A stretch of DNA of 36,735 nt from Rhodothermales bacterium (GTDB lineage Bacteria > Bacteroidota > Rhodothermia > Rhodothermales > UBA10348): positions 1 to 36,735 of the forward strand of contig JAFMNH010000013.1 of assembly GCA_017859335.1 (NCBI GenBank), given 5' to 3'. The notes under the pieces are model-generated. The model saw nothing but the letters and a program-made list of their open reading frames with translations. It made no database searches and was not told the DNA's origin. Every line of letters begins with the position of its first letter. Position 1 is the stretch's first letter. The position numbers and the translations under genes are program-made. Positions 2,855 to 11,074 of the stretch are shown in pieces.

Positions 2855-3856
2855 TCAATAGTTCTTGGCCGGTGTCAACTGCACGTTGCCTCGGGCCTGA
2901 TTGTAGAAATCATCCAGGTCCATGGTCAGCTCGATACGTTCCGGGATTCCTCCCTTGTTGAGACTGGCCACGACCCTTCCTCTGATGGGATCGACCGAAA
3001 TCACCTCACCTAAATAGACCGGGTCGCCGACACTGACTTTATATTCGCCGCCATTCCATTTCAGGATGGCTTCCGGTCCAACGATGGATATCAGCTCTGC
3101 AGACTCCAGATCCACCAGTCCGAGTGTATTAGGCGGCATGTTTTCCAGAATGAGGGGCTCAAACGGATTCATGCGCGGGCTGCGCCTGGGCAGCACCTCT
3201 TCGGGGACGGGAGGCAGGTCGGTGAAAATATCTGCGTCGCTGAAATACATGCTCATTGGAGCACCCGCTGTCGAGTCCGATGCGCTCAGACCCACGGCCC
3301 CACCGAAGAAGGCAGACAGCTCAAAGGAAAACTCCACGACCATGTCCAGTCGCTGTCGTCCCGTAGTCGGATCGTCCGACACGAGATCCATGTGACGAAG
3401 CTCCAGATCCTCCACCCGGTAGAGCTGCCGACTGTTTTCGATTACCCAGATCAGCTCGTAGACATCCCTGAAGGAACCCTGACCCTCAATCAGGAAATCG
3501 TACCTGTTGAAAGACGCCGTCTCCTCGAAGCCCTCAAAACTGATGTTGAATGGATGGAATCCTTTTCCGGTGTGGGTATTCAGGAAGCGGATTACTTCCT
3601 CGGATCCCATCTCGCGGGGAATCAGCTTGTAGCGAGCATTCCAGCGAGCCACGACGTTACTCGCCTGACTCTCAGAATCGCCTATTTCCGAGACGAGAGA
3701 GGAAAGCTCCGCCTGTTTCAACCGAGCTACCTGCTCGGCCTTCGTCAGCCGCTCCAATTCCTGTGGCTGCTTGACGAGCGTGATGTACCCGCCCACACCG
3801 GCTGCCACGAAAAGGAAGACGGTCAAGACAATCAGATTGCGTATTCGGTTCGACAT
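2855..3856 (-). CDS. PilO-PilP fusion protein (inner-membrane alignment complex)
   Basis: The 333-residue protein has a single N-terminal membrane segment (about 6-28), a coiled coil (about 30-62), and a PilO/GspM-like ferredoxin-type periplasmic domain (about 65-190). After a low-complexity linker comes a C-terminal PilP/GspC-type beta domain (about 229-315). The PilP part starts with the family's RxxPFEP signature (RMNPFEP) and continues with LISIVG, KVSVGDPVYLG, GRVVAS and a final IELTM strand. PilO and PilP are normally separate genes; PilP is usually a lipoprotein that bridges PilN/O to the secretin. Here PilP is tethered to the inner membrane by PilO's helix, and the secretin gene follows directly. 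The gene starts 3 bases after the PilM-PilN stop, so translation is likely coupled. Confidence 0.82.
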   Translation of the reverse strand: MSNRIRNLIVLTVFLFVAAGVGGYITLVKQPQELERLTKAEQVARLKQAELSSLVSEIGDSESQASNVVARWNARYKLIPREMGSEEVIRFLNTHTGKGFHPFNISFEGFEETASFNRYDFLIEGQGSFRDVYELIWVIENSRQLYRVEDLELRHMDLVSDDPTTGRQRLDMVVEFSFELSAFFGGAVGLSASDSTAGAPMSMYFSDADIFTDLPPVPEEVLPRRSPRMNPFEPLILENMPPNTLGLVDLESAELISIVGPEAILKWNGGEYKVSVGDPVYLGEVISVDPIRGRVVASLNKGGIPERIELTMDLDDFYNQARGNVQLTPAKNY

Positions 3857-3859
3857 GGC

Positions 3860-5731
3860 TTATCTCCCAGCCTCATCGGCCAGTGTTACAATCGCACTAG
3901 CAGCCCCTGATAATGCAGCTTGGGGGTCTGATGCGCCTTCTTTCAGACGGCTTGCTGCTTCCTTGCGCAAATATTCGGCTGCCTCGGGCAGGGTCCGCGT
4001 TATGGCCATGGTCATTTCAAACTCGTAGACAGGCACCGATCGAATTTCCGCAAAGGTGATATTCTCGATACGTCCTTGGGTCCGCGAAGCAAAAGCCACG
4101 ATGTCCTCTCGGTTCAAGGAGCGGCCTGCGATGAACAGGGACCCCTCGCTTTCTTCCTGCCACTCGGAAATCCACAGACCGGATACGTCTCCCGTGTATG
4201 CCGACGTACGCTCCAATGCCCTGCTCCAGACATCGCTGCCCACGAGCAGGGAGTCGAGCAGGTCGAGTGCATCGGCAAAACCAGCGCTGCGCGCCTTGAG
4301 ACTGTCGATTTTGGCCTGCAGGTCCGCGATGTTCTCTGTTTCAGCGCCGTCCTGGTACTGACTCAGTTCGAACCGGGCCCTCTCGATGTCCCGATCCTGA
4401 TCGAGGTAGCTGTAGACAAAAAACAGAGTCGTACAGAAGAGGACCACCATGATGGCGGCGATAGGCCACGAGAGTGGCAGTCTGAGCTGCTTTCCTCGTA
4501 GCTCGGGATCCATGAAATCGACGTCGGGGAATGCGGACTCCCAGATGTCGTGACCAGCCATGCTGAGCGCACCGAGCCTGGCCAGCATGGACTCAAGTGA
4601 TTTCTCGGCGGGTGCTTCACCATCTTTCGAGGGCACCAGATCACGCAGCAGTACCATCCTGGATTCAGGGAAGGCCCGCGAGAGAGTGTTATGAAGATAA
4701 CCTTCGTATTCCTCGGCAAAAAGAAGGATGCGGTCGGAATCTCCGACGCCCAACTCATCGTGCATGAGCAGGACGCGGCTGCAGATCGTCTCAGCCGGAT
4801 CAGATGCCGTAATGGAGCGGAGCGACTCGCAATGGACCAACTCCTCGCCGACCAGGAACATGACGAGGGTATTATCAGCCCCTACCCGAATAAGGAAACT
4901 GACGTCATCTTTCGACGTGGAGGGCGGCTCCTGTTGCAGCGCTTCATCTACCATCTCCGCAATGATGCTCTCGCGCTGCTCAGCGCGCACTGCAGCACGC
5001 GCCGCACCCAGGAGCAGCGTAATCTCCGTGCGCATGGCGGAAATGAAGGGAAGCGCCTCTTTACGGTCCCTGAGAGCCTGTACGGACGGACTGATCGGTT
5101 CGGAGCTCGTAGCGTAGACAGCCAAGTCTTTCCGATGCGTGCCCCCGAAGTCAGAAAGGGGAAGCAAGGTGACCTTCTCAGGCGACAGGTCCGGATGATC
5201 GGACAGAAACTGCCTGAGGAGGGCATCCCTCTTCTTTCGACCTTTTAAGCCTCCTGCGCCCGCCTTGACAATGGCATTTGCGCCGAGCATCTCTGATCCA
5301 AGGAACTCGGTGGGCAGGATGAATACAATCTGGAACCTGTCGTAACCAGCCTGCTTGCATTCGCTGACCAGCTCCTTGATTTCCTGATCGCATGGAACCA
5401 CGGTTTGAGTGGTCCACTCAAAGCTCATGCTCATGTCGGCGTCCTCGCCGGTAGCATCGAACTCTGACGTCAAGAACATTCCTGATGCCAGAGTTTGACT
5501 CTCGTAGTCGGCAAACGCGGCGTCTTCCAGCTGACCACCTTCATCCAGACCACCGTCAAAGGCTGGGGTTGCCTCATCCAATCCCCCCTGGCCGGCCTCG
5601 GCTCGGCTCCGCCGGAAAGTCCTCAGAATTACGGTTCCCGAGGGCGCATCGCGCAGGAGAATGCCCTCCAGCCTCTGCGAGGAGACCGTGATGGCAAGGA
5701 TGTGCTCTGTATTTCGTTCAGTGGAAAACAT
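3860..5731 (-). CDS. PilM-PilN fusion (GspL-like inner-membrane protein)
   Basis: The 623-residue protein has an N-terminal actin-like cytoplasmic domain (about 1-410), one transmembrane helix (about 418-443), a short coiled coil (about 450-490) and a PilN-type periplasmic domain (about 495-585). PilN-like sequence includes LWISEWQ, SLFIAGRSLNREDIVAFAS and the final VPVYEFEMTMAI strand. In most pilus systems PilM and PilN are separate and PilM binds the PilN tail; the joined arrangement is that of GspL in type II secretion. The nucleotide-binding loops of the actin-like part look degenerate: AITVSSQRLEG stands where PilM has a DIGSxxVK-type motif, so ATP binding is doubtful. An acidic, Gly/Asp-rich insert sits at about 45-100. 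The gene starts 11 bases after the PilT stop. Confidence 0.82.
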   Translation of the reverse strand: MFSTERNTEHILAITVSSQRLEGILLRDAPSGTVILRTFRRSRAEAGQGGLDEATPAFDGGLDEGGQLEDAAFADYESQTLASGMFLTSEFDATGEDADMSMSFEWTTQTVVPCDQEIKELVSECKQAGYDRFQIVFILPTEFLGSEMLGANAIVKAGAGGLKGRKKRDALLRQFLSDHPDLSPEKVTLLPLSDFGGTHRKDLAVYATSSEPISPSVQALRDRKEALPFISAMRTEITLLLGAARAAVRAEQRESIIAEMVDEALQQEPPSTSKDDVSFLIRVGADNTLVMFLVGEELVHCESLRSITASDPAETICSRVLLMHDELGVGDSDRILLFAEEYEGYLHNTLSRAFPESRMVLLRDLVPSKDGEAPAEKSLESMLARLGALSMAGHDIWESAFPDVDFMDPELRGKQLRLPLSWPIAAIMVVLFCTTLFFVYSYLDQDRDIERARFELSQYQDGAETENIADLQAKIDSLKARSAGFADALDLLDSLLVGSDVWSRALERTSAYTGDVSGLWISEWQEESEGSLFIAGRSLNREDIVAFASRTQGRIENITFAEIRSVPVYEFEMTMAITRTLPEAAEYLRKEAASRLKEGASDPQAALSGAASAIVTLADEAGR

Positions 5732-5742
5732 GCTATGGGGTA

Positions 5743-7092
5743 TCAGACGAGTTGCTGGAACCGTCGTTTGTTGTTGGCATGATCAAGCGCCACTTCCTGT
5801 GTTATCAAACCTTGCCGCATAAGCCGATAGAGATCCTGCTCGAGGGTGATCTGACCGTTATTCCACCCCTCCCACATCATCTGATAGATCTCCGAGCTGT
5901 TGTCGTTCTTTATGGCCGCACGGGCGGGTGACGTAACCCAGAGCACCTCCTTAGCCAGAATGCGACCGCCTCCGACCTTGGGAAGCAGCTTCTGCGAGAC
6001 GATGCACCGCAGCACATCGGCCAGACGCGTTCGAATCCTGGTCTGCTCGCTGGGAGGGTACTCGGCGACAATTCGGTCAATGGACTCCACCGCGCTGGAC
6101 GTATGGAGCGTGGAGAATACTTTGTGGCCGGAGTTAGTAATCTCGAGGCCTGCCGAAATGGTCTCAGGATCCCGCATCTCTCCGATGACGACCATGTCAG
6201 GGTCCTGACGCAGGGTCTGTACGATGCCATCTTTGAACGAGGAGACATCCTTCCCCACTTCGCGGTGACGGACGATGCATTTCCTGCTGTCGTGAATGTA
6301 TTCCACCGGGCGTCCGATGATCACGATATGCCCGTGGAAGTCTTCGTTGTTGGCATGGATGATTGCATCGAGTGTCGTTGACTTTCCTGATCCGGTCACA
6401 CCCGTGATCAGGGTAAGCCCATCACGTACGTGCCGGAACATCAGGCCTTTTTCGATTGTGGGGTGAAAACCCAAACTTCGAAGCGAGCGCGGACGGATCG
6501 AAATGGCTCGCATATTGAGAGCCATCTGGCCCATATCCAAGTAGGCCGTGGCACGAAAACGCTGCAATACGCCTGCACCCGACGGGGTTGCGTAGGAAAA
6601 GTCAGCTGACTTGTGCTCTGTCAGATCTGCAATATTGCGCGAAGTGAGAAGCGATAGGATGATCACATTGGTCTGATCGACCGTAAAGGGTGCATTGCTC
6701 CGATCAGGACGTTTCTCACCATCAATTCGATACCAGATCAAACCCTTCGAACTGGCCCCGCCCAGATCGACGTCTGACGCGTTCGACATGGTCATGCGCT
6801 CGAGGATGGTATCCACAAACAGCTTCAGATTCGTCCGGTTTTCGGTATCGACTTTCTCCAGCTGCTGTGCTTGGTAGAGAATCCTGTCCAGGCCCATGGC
6901 CGTCGGAGGCGTTGCATCGATGATGGATTGAACAAACGCCGGCAGTTGTGGCATCTGCGTAAGCGACGCTGACAACGAGCCTCCCCGCCCTGCCATGTCG
7001 GCAAAGGGAGACATACCAGAGCCTCGTTCTCTTCCGGAAGGACTGGAGGACGAAGCGGACTGTGAGACCGGGTTGTTTCTGTTCGATTCCAT
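5743..7092 (-). CDS. pilT: PilT-family secretion/retraction ATPase with altered Asp box
   Basis: The 449-residue AAA+-type ATPase has an N-terminal PAS-like domain containing the ASDVDL...RIDGEKRP signature (about 105-130). It has Walker A GVTGSGKS (231-238), Walker B DPDMVVIGEMRD (297-308) and the His box STLHTSSA (327-334). The C-terminal AIKN...LMRQGLITQEVA segment corresponds to the AIRNLIRE/EEAL region of PilT rather than PilB. PilT depolymerises pili from the inner membrane. The Asp box, normally TIEDPIEY, reads IIGRPVEY (258-265), so both acidic residues are replaced. An unusual Ser-rich, low-complexity N-terminal tail (about 1-45) precedes the domain. It is the first gene of the operon. 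No PilB-type assembly ATPase is in the window. Confidence 0.88.
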   Translation of the reverse strand: MESNRNNPVSQSASSSSPSGRERGSGMSPFADMAGRGGSLSASLTQMPQLPAFVQSIIDATPPTAMGLDRILYQAQQLEKVDTENRTNLKLFVDTILERMTMSNASDVDLGGASSKGLIWYRIDGEKRPDRSNAPFTVDQTNVIILSLLTSRNIADLTEHKSADFSYATPSGAGVLQRFRATAYLDMGQMALNMRAISIRPRSLRSLGFHPTIEKGLMFRHVRDGLTLITGVTGSGKSTTLDAIIHANNEDFHGHIVIIGRPVEYIHDSRKCIVRHREVGKDVSSFKDGIVQTLRQDPDMVVIGEMRDPETISAGLEITNSGHKVFSTLHTSSAVESIDRIVAEYPPSEQTRIRTRLADVLRCIVSQKLLPKVGGGRILAKEVLWVTSPARAAIKNDNSSEIYQMMWEGWNNGQITLEQDLYRLMRQGLITQEVALDHANNKRRFQQLV

Positions 7093-7353: not shown

Positions 7354-8709
7354 TCAGTTACCGACCCAAAGCGTATTTGCTGTCGTACCTGGCGGTGCAT
7401 GGGTCATTGACCGAAGCGCTGTTTTTCTGAGGTGTTTCCCGACCTCGCGGGGACTTGCGTCTGGATGCAAGGCAAGGTGAAGCGCAGCAGCCCCTGTGAC
7501 ATGCGCCGCCGCCATGGAGGTACCGGAACGTATCGCTGTATCCCCGTCCGGTGTCGCAGTAAGGATGGCTGTTCCAGGGGCGCTCAGATCGAGCAACGGA
7601 CCGTGGTTTGAGTAAGGGGCAAAACGGCGGTCCTGATCATAGGCACCAACCGTGATGGCATCGCGAACATGGGCTGGCGTTACCGTGGAAGCGTCCATCC
7701 CGTGATTTCCCGCTGCCACAACAACGGTAATACCGGCATCGATGACGGCTTGAACGGCATCGTCCAAAGCCGTGTGTCCGCGGCCTACGGCTGCTCCCAG
7801 ACTGAGATTCACGACGGCCGGTTTGTCCGGGTGGACACTCCGCCAGTTCAGCACCTCTTCGAGCGCTGAAATGACATAGGTATCGTCGCCAACGCCCTGC
7901 GTATCAAATACGCGGTAACTGTGAATCCTGGCGCCCGGGGCAACGCCTACAAGGCCCGCGCCGTCATCGAAAGCCGCTGCAATACCTGCTATGGCCGTAC
8001 CGTGCCCATCCGCGTCCGAAAGCGAACCGGCCATGGCTAGATCGTGGCTCTCAACAACGTCCATATCGGGATGGCTGACCCCCGAGTCGATGATGAAGAT
8101 ATCCACGTCAACTGTACCGGTACCGTCCCCGGAAACCGTCCAACTGGACGTGGCACCGATATCAGGCAAGGACCACTGTGCGCTTTCCGCTGCATCGGGC
8201 AGCGCTTTAAAAACAGGATGCTGCCGAACGGAAAATACCGGCTCCACCCAGGCAATCCTCGGATCCTCTTCCATGAGGGCCAGGATTTCGGTCAGATGCT
8301 TTGAGGATACCCACAGGGAATACCCATAGAATGTCTTGGTAAAACTGTAGCGATCCACAACCTCATACCGATCGACCACTTCGTAGCGATCCACGACTTC
8401 GTAGCGGTCAACGACCTCGTACCGATCGACCACCTCATATCGGTCCACTACTTCGTAGGGCTCCATGATGTGATGGTCATCCACAATGAGTGTGGGCTCA
8501 ATGGCAATGGTGATCGCTGTCTGCTCCCCCTTCTTTCCGGGAGAGGTGATGGCCTGGTCGAAAAGGGAAGCGTTGCGCACTTTCGTGCTGGGCAGAGGCT
8601 CCTCTGATTCGGATCCGTCGAGCATCTGATCGGAACATCCGAACATCATCAGGGAGGCCACAATGAAGGGCCAAAGGCGCTTACTGAAGGGAGCAGGGTG
8701 TGCTTTCAT
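7354..8709 (-). CDS. Subtilisin-family (S8) serine protease lipoprotein with a hexapeptide-repeat propeptide
   Basis: The start at 8709 gives a lipoprotein signal (FIVASLMMFGC, Cys25) and 451 residues; an upstream in-frame ATG at 8835 adds a tail without a signal. Residues 85-120 are six exact copies of YEVVDR. They run into an I9-like propeptide (about 121-160, ending DPRIAWVEPVFSV). The peptidase domain carries the full triad: Asp208 (FIIDSG), His236 (DGHGTAIAG) and Ser398 (SGTSMAAAH), with oxyanion Asn335 (AAGNHG). It should be an active protease anchored to the cell envelope. It has no type IX sorting domain. It lies in the same orientation between the pilin-like genes and pilT, which suggests, without proving, that it processes pilus or surface proteins. 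Confidence 0.93.
   Translation of the reverse strand: MKAHPAPFSKRLWPFIVASLMMFGCSDQMLDGSESEEPLPSTKVRNASLFDQAITSPGKKGEQTAITIAIEPTLIVDDHHIMEPYEVVDRYEVVDRYEVVDRYEVVDRYEVVDRYEVVDRYSFTKTFYGYSLWVSSKHLTEILALMEEDPRIAWVEPVFSVRQHPVFKALPDAAESAQWSLPDIGATSSWTVSGDGTGTVDVDIFIIDSGVSHPDMDVVESHDLAMAGSLSDADGHGTAIAGIAAAFDDGAGLVGVAPGARIHSYRVFDTQGVGDDTYVISALEEVLNWRSVHPDKPAVVNLSLGAAVGRGHTALDDAVQAVIDAGITVVVAAGNHGMDASTVTPAHVRDAITVGAYDQDRRFAPYSNHGPLLDLSAPGTAILTATPDGDTAIRSGTSMAAAHVTGAAALHLALHPDASPREVGKHLRKTALRSMTHAPPGTTANTLWVGN
8350..8457 (-). repeat. Six tandem 18-bp coding units (YEVVDR x6)
   Basis: Six contiguous 18-base units begin at 8350, 8368, 8386, 8404, 8422 and 8440 and encode identical YEVVDR hexapeptides. 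The units differ from one another only at synonymous positions: Val, Arg, Tyr, Glu and Asp codons all vary. This points to amino-acid-level selection after an old duplication rather than a recent slippage event. Confidence 0.9.
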
Positions 8710-8865
8710 GGAGGGAAGATGGTCTGGGATGGATTGAAACCAAGCGACCAGACGCTGTCTTGGACCGACTTGGTGACCGGTACGTGACGGACTCGGCACG
8801 ACACGTACCCATGTCAACCGATGACCTCCCGGCACCCACTAGACACATCCCCAACAAGAGCGTAA

Positions 8866-8928: not shown

Positions 8929-9981
8929 TTAATTCAACAGGTTCCGAGCCTCGGTGACGGAATCGTCGATATACGCATTCCCCATCTCCTGACCATCCTT
9001 GTAGGACGTATTCGCAACCTGTCGGATGACTTCCGTCTGACCCTCAGAGTCGATGGTGGCCAAAAAATAGCCAAGCATTTCAAGCGCTGCGGAGTTGTAC
9101 TGTATACGTGTATCCTTTTTCATTTCCACCTCTTCGATGCCATCCAAAAATAACGCTCCTTCGATGTAGGAATCTTTTTTCAATTCTAATCCACTGTCAT
9201 CACCGGTGACAAAAACTATCCCGTACCACATTGCCCCGTTGTTGATAGTCAAATCCCCATCGACATACAGGATTCCGTATCCCTCGAAACCCCTGTCGAG
9301 TGTTACATCTCCGTTAACGACGACAATCTCAGGTGAGGAAGGAGATCCAATGTTCTGTTTGGTGTCATTGGGGCCGAGGGCAGAGTACTCTAACTTATCA
9401 GGATAGGTCAAGATAGCCGACTCAATAGCAGACATAAGCGTACTGGACTCACCAAGGACCATGCTTCCTTCAATGTGGTTCTCTTCACCCCCCAGATCCT
9501 CAAGAGTCTCCGGATCAGACACTAGGACCGCGCTTGCTTCTGTTTGACCGCTCGCATCGATACCGGAAATCACCGCGTCCTTTTTGAACTCGAACTCCGT
9601 ACCCGAGCCGTCAACATTCATTGTTTCATTGATCTCCTGCCCCTGCATCGTCATGGATCCGATGATTTCGAAGGAATGGCGCCCGTATTTACCTACAGCA
9701 ATGACGGTCACCGAGCCATCTTCAGCCCGGACTGCTCCAATGTCGTAGAGGGCACCACCGTACGACTGATCCGTGAAGGCAAAGCTTTCCGATTCGAAAG
9801 CAGCACGCACCTTGGCAATAACGATGCTGAAGGCGCTCTGGGCCGTCTGACGCGCCAGGACCTTCTCCTGGTAGTCTGATTCCGTTTGGACGGAAGCCAG
9901 GTCCTGCTCCGTCCGGGCCAGGTAGAGCGTAGCCAACGACAACGTCGAAGCCATCACGAAGATGAGAATACCTTTGCCCAT
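8929..9981 (-). CDS. PilX/GspK-like pilin-type protein with a beta-helix-like region
   Basis: The 350-residue protein begins with a hydrophobic helix (GILIFVMASTLSLATLYLA, about 4-22) that continues into a long amphipathic helix (SDYQEKVLARQTAQSAF), as in PilX N-terminal domains. There is no G|FxxxE prepilin motif. The C-terminal half (about 125-290) has short repeating strands: EFKKDAVISG, LELKKDSYIEGALFLDG and EMKKDTRIQYNSAA. Together with GDVTLDRGFEGYGILYVDGDLTINNG, quoted in shortened form (GILYVDGDLTINNG), these suggest a right-handed beta-helix. I infer a minor pilin or tip component. It is last of three pilin-like genes, 124 bases after the second, so it may also have its own promoter. 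Its size and rank match GspK, but the body does not look like GspK's helical domain. Confidence 0.65.
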   Translation of the reverse strand: MGKGILIFVMASTLSLATLYLARTEQDLASVQTESDYQEKVLARQTAQSAFSIVIAKVRAAFESESFAFTDQSYGGALYDIGAVRAEDGSVTVIAVGKYGRHSFEIIGSMTMQGQEINETMNVDGSGTEFEFKKDAVISGIDASGQTEASAVLVSDPETLEDLGGEENHIEGSMVLGESSTLMSAIESAILTYPDKLEYSALGPNDTKQNIGSPSSPEIVVVNGDVTLDRGFEGYGILYVDGDLTINNGAMWYGIVFVTGDDSGLELKKDSYIEGALFLDGIEEVEMKKDTRIQYNSAALEMLGYFLATIDSEGQTEVIRQVANTSYKDGQEMGNAYIDDSVTEARNLLN

Positions 9982-10105: not shown

Positions 10106-10681
10106 TCAGGTTTCCAGACTGGGCGGTCGAACGGTGATGCCCCAGTGGCTTCGGAACATGTTCATTTTTTCCGGGTCGCCGAAGGGGTACACATTGACGG
10201 CCCTGACACGCAGCAATCGCGCAGTCGCTACATCGGCTGTTGTCGTTCCGTCAGCTGCCAACATGGTGATCTCAAAATGAGACAATGTGGAAAAGCCGCT
10301 TCCTGCCGGCTGGCCGCCCTCCGTGCGATCAAGACGGTAGAGTTGCACCGTTTCGCCATCGATCTCGATCGACGTTGTTTGCGTCAAGAGGTAAGAGACC
10401 AGCATGGGAGACCCTGTGTTATCCATGCGCCAAAAAGAAAACTGGGTGGTTTGATCCGCTTCATTGGATGCGATGGTCTGGATGGTATCAGCGGTGCCAT
10501 TCCCCACCAGAAGCAAATCGCTTTCAAGGTAGTCAGCCATGCTCAACGTCTGCGTCTTGGCGGCATAGGCCACAGACGATTCGACGGCACTGCGTTGAGC
10601 ATTCAGATTGGTCGCTACCACTACCAAGAGCACGGTACTGGCAACCAGAACAGACGCTATGTTGTCAAAGAGCAACTGCAT
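10106..10681 (-). CDS. PilW/GspJ-like minor pilin-type protein
   Basis: The 191-residue protein has an N-terminal hydrophobic helix (SVLVASTVLLVVVA, about 10-23) followed by an amphipathic stretch with Ala and a SMADYLESDL segment. That recalls PilW/GspJ, where a helix leads into a beta-rich domain. The rest (about 65-190) is predicted mostly beta from alternating patterns. There is no cleavable prepilin leader and no Glu at the position expected after one. It starts 3 bases after the stop of the preceding pilin-like gene, so the two are very likely co-translated. Identification rests on architecture and neighbours, not on a strong motif. Confidence 0.55.
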   Translation of the reverse strand: MQLLFDNIASVLVASTVLLVVVATNLNAQRSAVESSVAYAAKTQTLSMADYLESDLLLVGNGTADTIQTIASNEADQTTQFSFWRMDNTGSPMLVSYLLTQTTSIEIDGETVQLYRLDRTEGGQPAGSGFSTLSHFEITMLAADGTTTADVATARLLRVRAVNVYPFGDPEKMNMFRSHWGITVRPPSLET

Positions 10682-10684
10682 GCG

Positions 10685-11074
10685 TCACTGGGCAATGACC
10701 CGTGTATGGGTGACAAGCGGAGTGGCAAACCTCGGGTGGGTTGCCGCGATCGACAGCTCCTTTTGTGTAGTTGCGGTAGCTGATGGAGTACCGAATTCGT
10801 CCACGAATGTCACTGTGACGGTCAGATCGAATTCAATTCCATCGGCACCTATCTCAAACGATCGCTTCAACTCGGAGCCATTAAGCGACTCCAATCCCCC
10901 ATAACTGGTAGTGAGGTCAATGATCTCGATCTCCTCCAGCACCACAGCATTTGCCATCAGCTCAAACTCGCTTCGATAGGCTGCTTCATACGACTGAAGC
11001 TGGGCCGTATACTGGTTGATGGCCGACAACGCGGCAATCATCATGGCCAAGAATGCCAGAAGGGTCTGAGGCAT
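10685..11074 (-). CDS. PilV/GspI-like minor pilin-type protein
   Basis: The 129-residue protein begins MPQTLLAFLAMMIAALSAINQ, a short hydrophobic helix at the very N terminus, then an amphipathic helix (YEAAYRSEFELMANAVVLEE). A small beta domain with FDLTVTVTFVDEFG follows. Upstream of the ATG the frame holds no other start before a stop 13 codons away, so no hidden leader peptide exists. It lacks the G|FTLIE prepilin site. It is the first gene of the three-gene set. The order and sizes (129, 191, 350 residues) fit GspI-J-K. The assignment is moderate. Confidence 0.5.
   Translation of the reverse strand: MPQTLLAFLAMMIAALSAINQYTAQLQSYEAAYRSEFELMANAVVLEEIEIIDLTTSYGGLESLNGSELKRSFEIGADGIEFDLTVTVTFVDEFGTPSATATTQKELSIAATHPRFATPLVTHTRVIAQ

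Follow-up and report, generated by a model that had tools for sequence, protein, structure and literature searches.

A PilT-like ATPase with a substituted Asp box in a type IV pilus-like operon of Bacteroidota

Gene organization of the locus

The window, by which we mean the whole stretch of 36,735 nucleotides analyzed here, encodes a PilT-like ATPase of 449 aa (positions 5743-7092) among type IV pilus-like genes; all of the genes described below in the window lie on the minus strand. In a genome of 2.6 Mb that is spread over 174 contigs and is 96.6% complete, this is the sole PilT-type gene found. Downstream of pilT follow a PilM-PilN fusion-like protein of 623 aa (3860-5731), a protein of 333 aa in the PilO/PilP position (2855-3856), a conserved neighbor whose identity comes solely from gene order, a PilQ-type secretin of 457 aa (1460-2833; Pfam Secretin, 2e-25; TIGR02515 PilQ, 1.4e-26, below the cut-off of that family), and, at the operon end, a conserved lipoprotein-like protein of 395 aa (295-1482). 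Upstream lie a subtilase (Peptidase_S8) gene (7354-8835), placed between pilT and the minor pilins, and then the leaderless pilin-like genes: a PilX-like protein beginning MGKGILIFVMAS (8929-9981), named by eye and from its position, a GspJ/PilW-type minor pilin that starts at what would be the mature N-terminus (10106-10681), and a small pilin-like protein of 129 aa (10685-11074). Near its N-terminus the subtilase has a tandem array of about six YEVVDR units; one related locus (L082) retains this repeat, and several retain the gene itself. Where related loci extend far enough, the neighbors of pilT are conserved, with orthologues of the fusion protein adjoining pilT. The same adjacency of PilT and a PilM-type gene is seen in three loci of Bacteroidia (L124-L126); at L124 the two also have as a neighbor a protein that begins MFGKGAIILL.

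Pfam returned nothing above its cut-offs for the fusion protein, the protein in the PilO/PilP position or the small pilins, and a search of PDB sequences with the 623-aa protein gave no match. Its AlphaFold2 model (pLDDT 71.7) has PilM structures as its best PDB matches in Foldseek (E = 3e-11), and the PilM-like part is followed by a long helical stretch and then a small alpha/beta domain, an arrangement also seen in PilN. PilM and PilN appear to be fused in this one protein, the PilN part being assigned from predicted secondary structure and position. The model also matches BT_3980 of B. thetaiotaomicron, an actin-like protein of unknown function (3hrg; Foldseek). Elsewhere in the genome, contig C1 carries a PilC-type (T2SSF) gene and a pilin-like gene and ends within a pilB reading frame, while contig C139 holds most of a pilB. 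The type IVa pilus parts present are thus PilB, a PilC-type protein, a PilM-like protein with a PilN-like part, and a PilQ-type secretin.

Motifs and family assignment of the PilT-like ATPase

The sequence-only reading had named a PilT-like ATPase whose Walker A, Walker B and His box are intact, and this is borne out. The Pfam T2SSE match (116 bits) is above its cut-off, and the closest NCBIfam family is PilT itself (TIGR01420), although the score of 307.2 bits falls just short of the cut-off of 319.1; across 244 genomes from the class, a match above that cut-off was found in 29. The next-best families are TraJ (TIGR02525, 139 bits) and DotB (TIGR02524, 126 bits). Within the 449-aa open reading frame are a Walker A motif GVTGSGKS (residues 231-238, positions 6379-6402; GVTGSGKST in the longer read), a Walker B-type motif DMVVIGE that includes the catalytic Glu305 (residues 299-305, 6178-6198; DMVVIGEMRD), and a His box running from His323 to His330 with both histidines present (6103-6126).

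The Asp box reads IIGRPVEY (residues 258-265, 6298-6321; VIIGRPVEY in the longer read) and lies inside the interval 6295-6330 singled out by the sequence-only reading. We aligned the protein with solved PilT structures (2ewv, 2gsz, 6ojx), in which the box reads TIEDPIEY or TVEDPIEY, and the alignment confirms that Gly260-Arg261 (6310-6315) stand in place of the Glu-Asp pair (E160-D161 in the numbering of G. metallireducens PilT). The accompanying statement that both acidic residues of the box are lost holds for this pair, but the box has three acids, and the third, Glu264 of PVEY (6301-6303), is kept. Three further sites differ from canonical PilTs: Asp242, within the helix that follows Walker A (6367-6369), Arg275-His276 before REVG (6265-6270), where canonical PilTs mostly have xQ, and ARAAIKN (residues 390-396, 5905-5925), where they have AIRNLIRE. 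The genome holds two matches to the family, this protein and the product of a PilB-type gene in which TVEDPVEY is intact.

Distribution of the substitution and of co-occurring changes

The nearest relative, 85% identical, shares the loss of Glu-Asp. We compared 113 distinct relatives, which remained after 16 near-duplicates from overlapping loci were removed from an initial 129 family rows (L001, L002 and the 10-base regions L109 and L110 being excluded from the counts); 72 come from the order Rhodothermales, 18 from other orders of the class, and 23 from other Bacteroidota classes, these last drawn from 55 positive genomes outside the class. At the first position of the pair, Glu occurs in none of the 113 (Ala in 78, Gly in 29, Ser in 6). 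At the second, 108 have no acid and five do (Ser 37, Lys 32, Gln 18, Arg 10, Asn 7, Ala 4, Asp 3, Glu 2). The comparison set comprised 13 PilT-family genes taken from plasmid records that span seven other phyla; all 13 have the first Glu, and 11 have Asp at the second position (Ala once, His once). Outside Bacteroidota, then, the second residue varies a little, while the first is invariant in this small set.

Other changes are fixed together with the loss. Asp242 is present in 113/113 relatives (canonical: Ala 12, Asn 1), residue 258 is Ile, Val or Leu in all (canonical: Thr in all 13), residue 275 is Arg or Lys in all (canonical: mixed), and residue 276 is always His (canonical: Gln 12, His 1), while residue 232 is Val or Ile in 112/113 (canonical: Pro 10, Ala 2, Val 1). 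At the AIRNLIRE site the commonest form in the family is [VA][RK]AAIKN; some form of AIRNLIRE is recognizable in most of the 13 canonical proteins. In a tree built without eight signature columns, 56 representatives form one clade (SH-aLRT 100) on a long stem (2.81), in a tree that carries long-branch warnings. Of six pairs, the two with unsaturated dS gave dN/dS values of 0.086 and 0.163, and the family is under purifying selection by this measure. Among near relatives the Gly codon at the Asp-box position drifts synonymously (GGA, GGG, GGC, GGT).

Of 100 genomes around the window, 72 have a match to the protein at E<=0.001; in 62 of them the match is at least 429 bits, and the next lower match is at 81 bits. 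Across the phylum, 129 of 394 genomes match at E<=1e-40, every listed match scoring 380-997 bits. Against the window protein the 13 canonical PilTs reach 163-227 bits, so a typical one would have passed this search; none was found among the 394 phylum genomes. A second, canonical PilT in the same genome or in relatives was likewise not found in the genome, near-genome and phylum searches. Where the machine occurs, the protein with the variant Asp box is its PilT, a variant that defines a lineage.

Magnesium ligand and subunit interface

The sequence-only reading had taken the lost residues to help position magnesium, and published residue roles speak against this. In G. metallireducens PilT the Asp box spans E160 to E164, and magnesium is touched by E164 only, while the closed interface joins D161 to R195 of the neighboring subunit, and position 164 pairs with R81, a contact printed as D164-R81 (PMC6858323, in the excerpts available). 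The excerpts for G. metallireducens PilB give E357 as the magnesium ligand (PMC5424180), and those for CpaF name E312, 25 residues past K287, as the Asp-box Glu (PMC11300603). On the alignment, where E395 falls at position 415 of chain 5tsg, E357 of PilB comes out at position 377, the Glu of P-V-E-F. By motif spacing, E312 of CpaF is presumably also the second Glu of its Asp box. The counterpart of the published ligand, Glu264 here, is present in 113/113 relatives, as is that of the catalytic Glu305; the P-loop Lys, three arginines of the N-terminal domain and the His-box histidines are likewise fixed, with 112/113 retaining the counterparts of R195 and R207. Because the ligand is retained, the change bears mainly on the subunit interface and less on the magnesium site, and the published residue roles do not support reading it as a lost magnesium ligand. 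Papers citing Chiang et al. 2008 do call the Asp-box acids essential for PilT activity (PMC6762196, PMC5065972; excerpts).

Leaderless pilins and the prepilin peptidase

Type IVa prepilins carry a class III leader and Glu5. Both are absent from the pilins in the loci read, which start MGQQQLLLLVLG. One such pilin-like protein, without a leader, is encoded at positions 3651-4052 of contig C1 (locus L163) and has homologues across Bacteroidota (L179-L216); the pilin-like protein beside PilC begins MGQQQLLLLVLGIVIVGLAVVVGI. In the loci read, its MGQQQL start often stands behind a GGAG-type ribosome site, with an in-frame stop mostly within about ten codons upstream, while a few loci have longer upstream open frames or no clear ribosome site. 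Relatives of this pilin occur in 48 of 60 near genomes and in 128 of 394 phylum genomes. Nearly all of the listed alignments begin at residue 1, the exceptions being one from residue 23 in the near set and two from residue 2 in the phylum set. The departures in PilT and pilin travel together: 129 genomes have the PilT, 128 the pilin and 125 both, with PilT alone in four and the pilin alone in three, counts from related genomes to which we attach no probability.

Three bases separate the stop of the preceding gene from the start of the minor pilin at 10106-10681. Its AlphaFold2 model (pLDDT 81.6) shows an N-terminal helix of 55 residues and a beta sheet. Pilins and pseudopilins fill the ten top places in VIA-align (Z = 9.2-13.2, the next unrelated row being at 4.4), among them T. 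thermophilus TTHA1219, XcpW, EpsJ and GspJ, with rmsd values of 2.6-4.5 over 122-160 aligned residues; residue 2 of the minor pilin aligns with residue 1 of the modelled XcpW-type chain of 9a1f. Foldseek gave no significant match for the same model, its best being an unrelated protein at E = 0.09. The two results differ in strength, as VIA-align clearly separates pilins and Foldseek does not.

A profile search that detected 12 of 14 controls did not find a prepilin peptidase (PF01478) in this genome. The profile is present in 9 of 100 near genomes and in 51 of 394 phylum genomes; among the 129 genomes that bear the PilT, it was found in 15 and none was detectable in 114, including the single-contig genomes G028, G032 and G036. 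PF06750 was found in 2 of 60 genomes. A divergent peptidase outside PF01478 and PF06750 may be present. In the excerpts of one paper, Nanoarchaeota are the sole group named as lacking a detectable prepilin peptidase (PMC4471445). Apparently, then, the leaderless pilins belong to a peptidase-independent pilus machine, which is more surprising than the Asp-box change.

Proposed function and alternative explanations

Our preferred reading, to which we give a probability of roughly three in four, is that the protein is an early, selected Asp-box variant that serves, as the only motor of PilT type, a type IV pilus-like machine widespread in Bacteroidota, its ATPase activity likely kept and its subunit interface rewired. 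The Asp box would have been altered by a single early event in the phylum's history and then maintained by selection, and would not represent damage. ATP hydrolysis is most likely retained, since the P-loop Lys and Ser, Glu264, Glu305, the N-terminal-domain arginines and the His-box histidines are kept. In canonical PilT, D161 contacts R195 of the next subunit, so the expected effect of losing residues at this interface is on the locking and release of ring subunits and not on magnesium binding; Asp242, Arg/Lys275, His276 and the hydrophobic residue 258 probably form the rewired interface. Function as a retraction motor is something we only infer, because the TIGR01420 cut-off is missed and AIRNLIRE is replaced.

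A refinement of this reading, which we hold tentatively and somewhat doubt, is that the acid has been relocated: Asp242 would take over the carboxylate of E160, the charge network around the nucleotide would be kept, and catalysis would be close to normal. Reciprocity between the two sites is perfect, as the canonical Glu goes with Ala or Asn in 13/13 and the family Asp with the lack of Glu in 113/113, and the relocated acidic pair that the sequence-only reading had envisaged may in this sense be partly present. However, the whole clade represents one event with a long stem, so this reciprocity counts as a single observation, and positions 158, 175 and 176 (PilT numbering) as well as AIRNLIRE changed on the same branch. 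It is improbable that the protein is instead a pseudo-ATPase that binds ATP without hydrolyzing it and either regulates PilB or serves as its clutch. In its favor, the Asp box has lost residues that were long regarded as conserved, and AIRNLIRE is lost too, but all the published residues that handle magnesium, phosphate and water are kept in 113/113 (R195 and R207 in 112/113), and no second PilT was found in the genome.

Rather unlikely, though less so than a pseudo-ATPase, is a motor that serves no retractile pilus but an apparatus for secretion or DNA uptake that descends from type IV pili. Denise et al. 2019 suggest that the Bacteroidetes 'T2SS' derives from T4aP (PMC6668835, excerpts), and a putative T2SS affects cellulose use in Cytophaga (PMC5553014, excerpts). 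Yet 'pilT' occurs 0 times in the main text of the Cytophaga paper, as available, and the gene cluster described there has a Peptidase_A24 gene that is missing from our genome, whose operon carries PilT, a PilM-PilN fusion and PilQ. As for a sequencing error or a pair of compensating frameshifts in this one genome, the sole argument is the earlier remark that GGAC holds an Asp codon in another frame; its probability is negligible, and relatives and codons together rule it out. Gly, Ala or Ser stands in the same frame in every relative compared, the in-frame substitution recurs in independent assemblies of many species, and the Gly codon itself varies synonymously. The sequence-only reading had named Glu-Asp in close relatives as something that would speak against its own observation; none of the relatives has the Glu.

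Relation to known systems

With the retraction ATPase PilT of T4aP (TIGR01420; 2ewv, 6ojx) the window protein shares Walker A, the magnesium Glu, the catalytic Glu, the N-terminal-domain arginines and the His box; it differs in the replaced Glu-Asp, the Asp in the P-loop helix, [RK]HREVG, the replaced AIRNLIRE and the score just below the cut-off. TraJ and DotB, ATPases of conjugation and of Dot/Icm (TIGR02525, TIGR02524), are the next-best matches at far lower scores, and the one TraJ sequence compared keeps AEDPVEY, unlike the window protein, whose operon is a pil operon; membership of either family is ruled out by score and context. The extension ATPases PilB and GspE belong to the same superfamily, but this genome encodes its PilB separately, on other contigs, and that PilB, unlike the window PilT, keeps TVEDPVEY. 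The Bacteroidetes 'T2SS' (Denise et al. 2019; Cytophaga hutchinsonii) is found in the same phylum, is related to T4aP and clusters with it; the excerpted accounts name no PilT for it and include a Peptidase_A24 gene.

The Asp-box pair serves as a signature of secretion ATPases, and a phylum whose only PilT lacks the pair disentangles the magnesium ligand from the residues of the interface. The PilT of Bacteroidota is thus a natural experiment on the contacts that set the open and closed cycle of the motor. Taken as a whole, the observations make it fairly probable that a pilus-like machine exists throughout Bacteroidota with pilins that are made in mature form (MGQQQLLL[IL]VLG..., with neither leader nor Glu5), with no prepilin peptidase, and with the inter-subunit lock of PilT rewired by loss of Glu-Asp and gain of an Asp in the P-loop helix. 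If so, leaderless pilins in genomes that mostly have no peptidase would be an exception to the rule that type IV filaments consist of processed prepilins, and would also explain how surveys based on leader motifs or peptidases could miss such systems in Bacteroidota. In a literature search, which is weak evidence of novelty as most subscription journals and preprints fell outside its coverage, titles and abstract openings did not report the Asp-box variant, leaderless Bacteroidota pilins or the lack of the peptidase.

Divergent paralogues

Several Rhodothermales carry a second group of PilT paralogues, recognizable by ...AQPLEYIH and by HTGSA in the His box and also without the Glu (L034, L036, L040, L042, L044, L045, L051-L053, L056, L069 and L070). 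A further divergent paralogue (L049; G054:C255:4655-5887) has His as its R195 counterpart and has lost the counterpart of R207 (GEMLSP), and is perhaps a decaying or inactive copy.
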